A stretch of 64,000 bases of DNA, taken from positions 62,001 to 126,000 of the forward strand of contig MPCU01000002.1 in assembly GCA_001874305.1 (NCBI GenBank). Reading direction: 5' to 3'. Positions 24,012 to 28,076 of the stretch are shown piece after piece; position 1 is the stretch's first letter, and each line of letters opens with the position of its first letter. The stretch comes from Bacteriovorax sp. MedPE-SWde. Lineage in GTDB: Bacteria; Bdellovibrionota; Bacteriovoracia; Bacteriovoracales; Bacteriovoracaceae. Made by a program: the position numbers and the translations under genes. The notes below the pieces were generated by a model that was not told where the DNA came from, searched no databases, and worked only from the letters and a program-made list of their open reading frames with translations.

Positions 24012-24917
24012 ATGACATGGAAAGATGTGAATTCAAACCTTTTGAAAAGAAGTGGATCGGGACTAAAATCTCTTGTCACTGACTCTCATGCGGAAATCTT
24101 AATTATTAATAGTGGCAACGATGTAGGTGTTGTAAGAAATGGCGGACGAAGAGGTACATGTCATGGACCAAAGGTCCTTTCATCTAATCTGCTAAAACTG
24201 GCCAAGAGAGACTTCACTAAGAAGATTAATGTCATAACTTCATGTGATCATCTGACAAGTACGATCAACTTTACAGATTTTCAAAATTCACAATCAAGCT
24301 TCATTCAAGAACTCTTAAATAAGCAAAGATCATCAGTCATTCACTTTGGTGGCGGTCATGATCATGTCTATCCTCTTATTGATGCAATTATAAAAGAGAA
24401 AGGTGCTGTTACAGTCATCAATCTTGACGCACACCTCGACACAAGAAATGACGACCTTAGACATTCTGGTACCCCATTTAGGCAACTCAAAGAAGAACAC
24501 AAAGACGACATAGACATCATCCAAATTGGTATTCATGACTATGCAAATGCTTGTGGAAATTATGACGGTCTTAATATGACGATTCAAACTGTTAATGAAA
24601 TAAAGAAGCTCACAAAGAATTTCACTGACAATAAAGACTATATAGAATCGATTTTTTCAAATATTAGTAGTGATAGAACTATCGTACTGAGCCTAGATAT
24701 GGACGCAATTGATGGAAGTGAAATGCCAGCTGTTAGCGCAGTTAATCATGACGGGCTACCAATGTCTTTTATTAGAGATGTCTTTATGAGCTATAAATGT
24801 AATGTAAAACAGACGAGCTATATAGGAATATATGAATACAACCCACTTTATGACAATATGGGTTGTTCAAGTGCCAGGGCAATGGCCTCGACACTTTATA
24901 ATTACTTAGTTGATTGA
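24012..24917 (+). CDS. Ureohydrolase (arginase/agmatinase/formimidoylglutamase family)
   Basis: 301 residues from the ATG at 24012, which has AAGGAAA upstream; the longer frame overlaps the promoter of the divergent gene. The two-metal site is complete: GGGHDH, DAHLDTR and SLDMDAID, which together bind the binuclear Mn centre that activates water to split a guanidino or formimino group. SGTPFRQL and the spacing look closest to formimidoylglutamase (HutG-like), but no hut genes are nearby, so the substrate is open. Its last bases overlap the convergent small gene. Confidence 0.88.
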   Translation: MTWKDVNSNLLKRSGSGLKSLVTDSHAEILIINSGNDVGVVRNGGRRGTCHGPKVLSSNLLKLAKRDFTKKINVITSCDHLTSTINFTDFQNSQSSFIQELLNKQRSSVIHFGGGHDHVYPLIDAIIKEKGAVTVINLDAHLDTRNDDLRHSGTPFRQLKEEHKDDIDIIQIGIHDYANACGNYDGLNMTIQTVNEIKKLTKNFTDNKDYIESIFSNISSDRTIVLSLDMDAIDGSEMPAVSAVNHDGLPMSFIRDVFMSYKCNVKQTSYIGIYEYNPLYDNMGCSSARAMASTLYNYLVD

Positions 24918-25108
24918 TTTTTTGATTTTTCGAAGTTCTCTTTGAGGACTTCGCTAAGACCTTCATTTAGTTGCTTCTTAACTGTTTCAGCATCTTCTTT
25001 ATCAAGCAAGCCTTCATTATAAAGAAGTTGATCAAGGCTCACTTCAGACTTAGATTTTTGGACTTTACCACCACGGGCCAAGAATTCTTCTACTGTTTCA
25101 GTTTTCAT
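24902..25108 (-). CDS. Small FLARGGKV-motif protein
   Basis: 68 residues; start supported by GGGGA seven bases upstream. It contains TVEEFLARGGKVQKSKSEV, a motif seen in many short uncharacterised proteobacterial proteins, followed by an acidic helix with a Lys-rich end. No signal peptide, so cytoplasmic. Its 3' end overlaps the convergent ureohydrolase gene by 16 bases. The upstream 344-bp gap contains a sigma-54 promoter and terminator (25163-25273) whose transcript could act as a leader of this gene. Confidence 0.7.
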   Translation of the reverse strand: MKTETVEEFLARGGKVQKSKSEVSLDQLLYNEGLLDKEDAETVKKQLNEGLSEVLKENFEKSKNQSTK

Positions 25109-25156: not shown

Positions 25157-25246
25157 AAAAAAACCCGCTATGAAAATAGCGGGTCTTTTTGAGAGACATT
25201 TTGACGGAGCGAAAAAATCCTTTTTTCATTCTCCAACACACACACA
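25157..25246 (-). ncRNA. Candidate small RNA (or terminator-bearing leader) from a sigma-54 promoter
   Basis: A transcript starting about 12 bases after the -12 element (25246/25245) and ending at the terminator would be about 85-90 nt. It would begin with a GU repeat and then fold into a hairpin: GGAG ... GAAAAAA gga UUUUUUC ... CUCC (about 25234 to 25206), followed by a short single-stranded A/U-rich link and the terminator stem. No convincing reading frame fits: an ATG at 25229 opens a 39-codon frame, but it runs through the terminator and its ribosome site touches the ATG. It may instead be a regulated leader of the 24902-25108 gene, which starts 55 bases past the terminator. Confidence 0.55.
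25163..25184 (-). terminator. Strong terminator closing the sigma-54 short transcript
   Basis: Perfect 8-bp stem ACCCGCTA / TAGCGGGT, 6-base loop, followed on the minus strand by nine T. Also T-rich on the plus strand. No protein gene ends here on either strand apart from distant ones, which suggests a non-coding transcript. Confidence 0.85.
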
Positions 25247-25256
25247 TCTTATATAT

Positions 25257-25273
25257 AGCAAAGGCCGTGCCAA
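25257..25273 (-). promoter_or_regulatory. Sigma-54 promoter (-24/-12)
   Basis: Minus strand TTGGCACGGCCTTTGCT matches the sigma-54 consensus TTGGCACG-N4-TTGCT at every defined position, with the -24 GG at 25271-25270 and the -12 GC at 25259-25258. Confidence 0.85.
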
Positions 25274-25329
25274 CTTTTACAATACCTCAACAGTATCTAA
25301 CTCATTGTAATTACGTGTAGACTTTAAAA

Positions 25330-25399
25330 TGACATGTTGTTTTTTTGACTGACACAGCGAGCATTAGAGACTTATTTCTGACACGTTAGTTTTGACACA
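25330..25399 (-). promoter_or_regulatory. Four TGACA(C/T) elements upstream of the sigma-54 promoter
   Basis: TGACAT at 25330 and TGACAC at 25350, 25379 and 25393 (plus-strand reading) lie about 60-130 bases upstream of the -24 element, where binding sites of sigma-54 activators usually lie. All share the same orientation. Candidate enhancer. Confidence 0.5.
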
Positions 25400-25405
25400 A
25401 AAAAA

Positions 25406-25422
25406 GGAGGGCCAAACCCTCC
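25406..25422 (-). terminator. Terminator of the 25453-25866 gene
   Basis: Stem GGAGGG / CCCTCC with a 5-base loop, followed on the minus strand by eight T. It separates that gene from the small-RNA region. Confidence 0.85.
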
Positions 25423-25452
25423 TCTACTTATTTATTTAATATTTTTATCTGA

Positions 25453-27271: not shown

Positions 27272-27511
27272 TTATTTTTTTAAAGAGTTTAAATAATGAC
27301 TAAGCTTCATGACACCTTGATCCACCGCCTCACTCTTATCTTCGTGATCAAAACCCTGACAAATATGTTTAAAGATTTTCTTAGATTCACGGAAAACGAT
27401 ATCAACTTCAAAAACAAATTTTGTACGAATTTTATTGACAGAGACTCTACCTAATAAACTATCATTGTTGCTTATATCAATATAGAAGTCCTGAGGGAAT
27501 TCTTCTTTCAT
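27272..27511 (-). CDS. Small cytoplasmic protein, unknown function
   Basis: 79 residues. The open frame runs much further upstream, but that part is antisense to the YceI gene; the ATG at 27511 has AGGA nearby and leaves a normal protein beginning MKEEFPQDFYIDISNN. It is mixed alpha/beta with a strand GRVSVNKIRTKFVFEVDIVF and an amphipathic C-terminal helix. No domain recognised. It is divergent from the YceI gene, with 19 bases between start codons. Confidence 0.6.
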   Translation of the reverse strand: MKEEFPQDFYIDISNNDSLLGRVSVNKIRTKFVFEVDIVFRESKKIFKHICQGFDHEDKSEAVDQGVMKLSHYLNSLKK

Positions 27512-27530
27512 TGCTAATCCTGGAGAGATG

Positions 27531-28076
27531 ATGAGAATTATACTAACTACTATTTTACTAGTTGTCATGACTAACTCTTTTGCAGAGTGCGTTAAGTTTA
27601 CGAACAAGAATACTAAGGTTAACTGGACCGCTTTTAAGACACCAGCAAAGGCCGGAGTAAATGGATCTTTTACAAAATTCAATATTTCAGCAGCAAAGAA
27701 AATGGGAAATCTAAAAGATGTTCTCATCGGATCAACTTTCACTATCAACTCTTCAAGTGTTGCAACTAAGAACGCAAGTCGTGACAAGAAAATTGTTAAA
27801 AACTTCTTCCCTTCAGTAAAGATTTCTGGAAAAGTAAGAGCTATAAAGAAAGGTATGCTAATCACAGATATGGTTATGAATGGAAAGAAAGTTATGGTTC
27901 CACTTAAGTACTCTTTAAATGGAAATAACTTTTCAGCGAAAGCAACTATTGATGTTCTAGACTTCATGATGAATAAGCAACTAGGTGCAATTAATAAGGC
28001 ATGTAAGGCACTTCACGAAGGAAAGACTTGGAATGATGTTAATGTTGAGATTTCAACAGAAATGACTTCTTGCTAA
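27531..28076 (+). CDS. YceI-family periplasmic protein
   Basis: 181 residues. Of two tandem ATGs the second (27531) has a better spacing to GGAGAG and gives the signal peptide MRIILTTILLVVMTNSFA. The mature protein has the YceI lipocalin-like pattern: CVKFTNKNTKVNWTAFKTPAKAGVNGSFTKFN, then STFTINSSSVATKNASRDKKIVKNFFP and IKKGMLITDMVMNGKKVMVPLKYSLNG. YceI proteins bind isoprenoid or other amphipathic ligands in a beta-barrel. It is followed after 27 bases by the CBS gene, so the two are probably co-transcribed. Confidence 0.88.
   Translation: MRIILTTILLVVMTNSFAECVKFTNKNTKVNWTAFKTPAKAGVNGSFTKFNISAAKKMGNLKDVLIGSTFTINSSSVATKNASRDKKIVKNFFPSVKISGKVRAIKKGMLITDMVMNGKKVMVPLKYSLNGNNFSAKATIDVLDFMMNKQLGAINKACKALHEGKTWNDVNVEISTEMTSC

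Follow-up and report, generated by a model that had tools for sequence, protein, structure and literature searches.

The window (the whole 64,000-nt stretch of Bacteriovorax sp. MedPE-SWde DNA that was analysed) carries on its minus strand a putative small RNA with a promoter, upstream enhancer sites and a terminator of its own (Table 1). Positions 25273-25258 of the minus strand read TTGGCACGGCCTTTGC and agree with the sigma-54 -24/-12 element at 11/11 defined positions, confirming the perfect sigma-54 promoter claimed by the initial annotation. The start of transcription is placed 12 nt past the -12 C. GTGTGTGTGTTGGAGAATGAAAAAAGGATTTTTTCGCTCCGTCAAAATGTCTCTC lies about 12 nt downstream of TTGGCACGGCCTTTGC, and the intrinsic terminator (25190-25157) follows. 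With the promoter just before it and no reading frame inside, the segment fits the terminator-ended transcript of about 90 nt that had been proposed. Another strong terminator, belonging to a 137-residue gene, lies on the minus strand at 25403-25425, directly upstream of the enhancer sites, and insulates the RNA from upstream transcription.

Table 1. Features of the small RNA locus, in window positions.
Feature	Position	Strand	Remarks
Arginase-family gene, convergent with the RNA	24012..24917	+	Pfam PF00491; same arrangement in 48/79 loci
Small RNA (predicted)	25157..25246	-	Predicted to run from about 25246 to the terminator; 87.9 bits for the covariance-model match at 25157-25245
Intrinsic terminator	25157..25190	-	15-pair stem; stem sequence varies by species
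Single-stranded UGUCUCUC, likely pairing seed	25191..25198	-	Conserved; GUCUCU in 67/67 main-group sequences; absent in divergent homologues
Hairpin, outer GGAG/CUCC, inner A-rich/U-rich stem	25206..25234	-	GGA loop 25220-25218; compensatory stem changes
Single-stranded 5′ (GU)n tract	25235..25245	-	Near-invariant in 30 aligned sequences
Sigma-54 -24/-12 promoter, TTGGCAC-N5-TTGC	25258..25273	-	11/11 here; conserved in homologous loci
Extra ATGTCA half-site	25330..25335	-	Outside the conserved pair
Proximal enhancer site, degenerate GTCA-N6-TGAC, GTCAAAAAAACAAC	25336..25349	-	-76 from the -24 element, an offset at which relatives carry the exact palindrome; spacing to the distal site 33 bp
Distal enhancer site, degenerate GTCA-N6-TGAC, GTCAGAAATAAGTC	25369..25382	-	-109 from the -24 element; exact palindromes in relatives at the same offset
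Extra GTGTCA half-site	25393..25398	-	Outside the conserved pair

The surroundings of the RNA were compared among the fetched loci. A gene for a conserved protein of about 80 residues lay upstream on the same strand in 42/79 loci; in the window it is separated from the RNA by the 137-residue gene and a gene for a chemotaxis protein. The conserved small protein (PKEFF...VEIDIVxxESKKIxKHV...) makes up the C-terminal ~80 residues encoded at 27272-27967 on the minus strand and has no Pfam match. Its identification as a ribosome-hibernation protein, suggested by a likeness seen by eye, was dropped when Pfam returned no match. A search of genome contigs for related loci with the arginase protein also gave no match.

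The distribution of the RNA was then determined. An early nucleotide search (97 genomes) revealed similarity from promoter to terminator in about 30 members of Bacteriovoracaceae, the family of predators to which the window's genome belongs. A covariance model built from an alignment of 30 sequences matched 97/129 genomes of this family of Bdellovibrionota at E < 1e-5 and none of about 240 other genomes of the phylum. Each matching genome held one high-scoring copy, with the sole exception of G113, which had two. Scanning about 85,000 species genomes with an exact pattern returned 55 loci, the titles of which nearly all named Bacteriovoracaceae, Bacteriovorax, Halobacteriovorax or broader groups containing them. 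Within the genomes searched, the RNA is restricted to the family. The Rfam check proposed earlier found no family above the gathering cut-off; sub-threshold matches were not meaningful, such as one to rsmX, which scored 12.9 bits where the cut-off is 56. Searching with only the enhancer and promoter uncovered six divergent homologues (G036, G129, G130, G131, G046 and G052). They lack UGUCUCUC and carry GGA loops, on a single hairpin in G046 and on two hairpins in each of the other five. The GGA hairpin is thus the most deeply conserved element of the RNA.

The promoter was kept together with the RNA. In 78 homologous loci, which were collected mainly via the RNA part, it scored 11/11 in 50, 10/11 in 24 and 9/11 in 4; the covariance-model and pattern searches were blind to the promoter, whereas the initial nucleotide search included it. 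The pattern TTGGCAC-N5-TTGC occurs in 11 copies in the window genome, compared with 0 for a reversed control pattern. Most of these 11 perfect promoters precede genes for proteins with signal peptides, one of which resembles a secreted protease, and the sigma-54 regulon of the host predator looks largely secreted or envelope-directed.

Folding of the predicted RNA gave -28.4 kcal/mol, compared with -15.7 in shuffles (z -4.6), and reproduced the claimed structure, a 5′ hairpin closed by GGAG/CUCC plus the terminator stem. Across 67 distinct sequences the inner stem was paired at nearly all positions, with compensatory changes at pair 3 (A-U/G-C/C-G) and pair 7 (G-C/A-U/U-A). While the stem letters vary, the loop letters GGA are constant: GGA was unpaired inside an enclosed loop in 66/67 sequences and stood in an ANGGAN context in 64. 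In the main group, a less conserved 5′ GGA is also present beside the single loop GGA. Both UGUCUCUC and the (GU)n tract were mostly single-stranded in the predicted folds, and the sequence of the terminator stem changed freely among the 30 aligned sequences. The -24/-12 element and the hairpin, whose conservation in relatives had been named as a check, are both kept across the family.

Four TGACA(C/T) repeats upstream had been taken as activator sites. The repeats are present, as (G/A)TGTCA words on the minus strand starting at 25398, 25384, 25355 and 25335, but the likely activator motif is a GTCA-N6-TGAC palindrome instead of a GTGTCA direct repeat. A search of the genome for GTGTCA-N8-GTGTCA elsewhere yielded one-mismatch matches only, not above control. 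On the other hand, 73 exact GTCA-N6-TGAC palindromes were counted in 68 upstream regions, compared with 0.18 in shuffles. They lie -64 to -132 from the -24 element and their pairs are spaced 31-33 bp, which corresponds to three helix turns. An exact pair was found in 13/97 genomes, at 14 places in all, 13 of which adjoin the small RNA or a divergent homologue; the remaining one is a contig-end copy of one of these. A single site together with a sigma-54 promoter was found at 33 places in 129 genomes, one per genome (control 0), and 32 of the 33 are at the small RNA, the six divergent homologues counted in. In the window the palindromes are degenerate and cover two or three of the four words, GTCAAAAAAACAAC overlapping the third; their right halves are poor, which counts against the explanation preferred below.

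The 14-bp GTCA-N6-TGAC site, exact in relatives and degenerate in the window, equals the FleQ consensus, GTCAAT-N2-ATTGAC (PMC10723142, PMC6120874). The search for enhancer-binding-protein genes suggested earlier identified about 10 clear sigma-54 activators in the host genome. One of them, on contig C15, combines a receiver, a sigma-54 domain (GAFTGA) and a Fis-type HTH. FleQ was the best match to its HTH region among solved structures (E 1.6e-8, with a shared RTTL-EKM), but the receiver domain that precedes it in the candidate is of the ordinary response-regulator kind. It is single-copy in 73/73 good family genomes. This FleQ-like protein probably drives the small RNA promoter. Activator matches are on the whole weaker in family genomes that lack the small RNA, but distance from the window genome confounds this trend and it was given no weight.

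Two readings tie the segment to a protein gene. According to the initial annotation, it might be a leader, with a terminator, for the 68-residue gene at 24902-25108, which starts about 50 bases past the terminator on the same strand. This gene and the 137-residue gene, which flank the RNA, occur in the window genome only among the fetched loci. Moreover, the next downstream gene is convergent in 49/76 loci and the co-directional neighbours elsewhere differ, so this role was rejected as very improbable. A very short peptide gene starting at the conserved ATGTCTCTC, where ATG, TTG or GTG is kept in most variants, is hardly credible either. Immediately before it lies the 3′ arm of the hairpin, which contains no ribosome-binding site. 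The third codon positions do not vary, ACG or AAG takes the place of a start codon in some species, and later codons enter the variable terminator with unrelated readings. The segment is almost certainly an independent, sigma-54-dependent small RNA. Conservation of the promoter, enhancer pair, hairpin and terminator throughout the family supports the activator-controlled small RNA that had been envisaged, and a previously undescribed sigma-54-dependent small RNA family is well supported by these comparisons.

As to function, we favor, at a probability of about 0.6, a model in which a small RNA controlled by a FleQ-like activator and sigma-54 binds CsrA and has antisense activity in addition. 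In this model, a FleQ-like enhancer-binding protein on the two GTCA-N6-TGAC sites would switch on transcription by sigma-54 RNA polymerase. The RNA would present the GGA (ANGGAN) hairpin loop and bind CsrA post-transcriptionally, and a burst of RNA would titrate CsrA and relieve CsrA-controlled messages. As a second activity, the UGUCUCUC exposed in most species would base-pair at ribosome-binding sites. One such site in the window genome may be that of the activator itself, which would give negative feedback.

ANGGAN hairpin loops are the target of CsrA/RsmE (PMC7652899). The window genome contains csrA, with intact L4 and R44 regions, in the gene order flgL-csrA-fliW (flgL and fliW named from sequence), while Hfq (PF17209) was found in 0/19 Bdellovibrionota genomes, including three near-complete ones from the same genus as the window. 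Given the invariant GGA loop, the presence of csrA and the failure to find Hfq in the 19 genomes, CsrA binding is the preferred mechanism, and we lean slightly towards it as the main activity of the RNA. Two observations count against it. In about 8 distinct Bacteriovorax sequences, the full-length ensemble prefers folds that hide GGA. Each RNA also has only 1-2 GGA motifs, a low number for an RNA that titrates CsrA; there are 22 in CsrB and 4 in McaS, which binds CsrA more weakly and in which 2 of the motifs are demonstrated sites.

The antisense activity was assessed with ribosome-binding-site statistics on 384 start-codon regions from a 400 kb sample plus the window. Of these regions, the ribosome-binding site of the candidate activator matched the RNA best, with 12 nt of perfect complementarity (UGAGAGACAUUU, directly before AUG) compared with 9 in the next-best region; CUCUC resembles the anti-Shine-Dalgarno sequence, which inflates such matches. 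Strong pairing with the activator message was predicted in 6/18 species tested and was absent in others, so the feedback would be lineage-specific at most. A further message, in G001 (contig C44, about 1180-1360), has a GTCA-N6-TGAC site and a sigma-54 promoter and carries CACACACACAACACACAC and GGAGAGAGAC before AUG, motifs that complement each of the two single-stranded segments of the small RNA; its 189-residue product has a membrane start and, by eye, an HNH-like motif. On contig C10 of genome G000 (about 1540-1560), a sigma-54-driven secreted-protein gene has the ribosome-binding region AGAGAGAGAGAC and may be another target. The chances that antisense pairing is one activity of the RNA are about even.

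In a purely antisense RNA of the Qrr type, UGUCUCUC, with or without the GU tract, would base-pair at ribosome-binding sites, and stabilising the 5′ end would be the only role of the GGA hairpin. The invariance of the mostly unpaired GUCUCU in the main group argues for this reading, as do the 12 nt matched at the ribosome-binding site of the activator and the G001 message, with its sigma-54 promoter and GTCA-N6-TGAC site, in which CACACACAC and GGAGAGAGAC lie in the 5′ end. However, the six divergent homologues dispense with UGUCUCUC and keep the GGA loops, the loop letters stay constant although the stem changes, Hfq was not found (0/19 genomes), and the activator is not a conserved target across the family. 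An RNA acting by pairing only is therefore considered rather unlikely, and binding of CsrA through the GGA loop, with pairing as an added activity, is preferred.

The Qrr small RNAs of Vibrio are controlled by LuxO and sigma-54, have a LuxO site and depend on Hfq. The RNA described here resembles them in being a terminator-ended RNA of about 100 nt with a sigma-54 promoter, upstream activator sites and possible feedback on the activator, but its sequence and structure are unrelated, it is present in one copy behind a FleQ-like site, no Hfq was found and Rfam gave no match. GlmY (GlrR/sigma-54) is likewise a sigma-54-driven small RNA with palindromic activator sites of TGTC/GACA type. The GlrR sites have a longer spacer than those found here, and the RNA and its target are different. 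CsrB/CsrC, RsmX/Y/Z and McaS share the ANGGAN hairpin loops, two such hairpins being present in the divergent genera here, and McaS also pairs with messages; the present RNA, on the other hand, has far fewer GGA motifs and sigma-54/FleQ-like instead of GacA/UvrY control. CrcZ/CrcY of Pseudomonas and Azotobacter, under CbrB/sigma-54, titrate an RNA-binding protein as well (PMC4063720, PMC6292655), but target Hfq-Crc via A-rich motifs, whereas a CsrA-type GGA loop is found here. In the library searched, no paper pairing Halobacteriovorax with a small RNA was found, and the two pairings of Bacteriovorax with sRNA concern other organisms.

More tentatively, the parts may form a self-limiting switch in the flagellar CsrA-FliW system of Bacteriovoracaceae, in which one FleQ-like activator and sigma-54 act through a single dedicated promoter to make a CsrA-antagonist RNA that represses its own activator; this fuller picture is possible but doubtful. 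Small RNAs of predatory bacteria have hardly been described, and the one reported here is single-copy, present in most of its family and placed behind an enhancer pair that is nearly absent elsewhere in the genome. If it is a CsrA antagonist, it would represent a Csr-type RNA under sigma-54 control outside Gammaproteobacteria and would provide a testable link from an environmental activator to the motile/attack programme of these predators.
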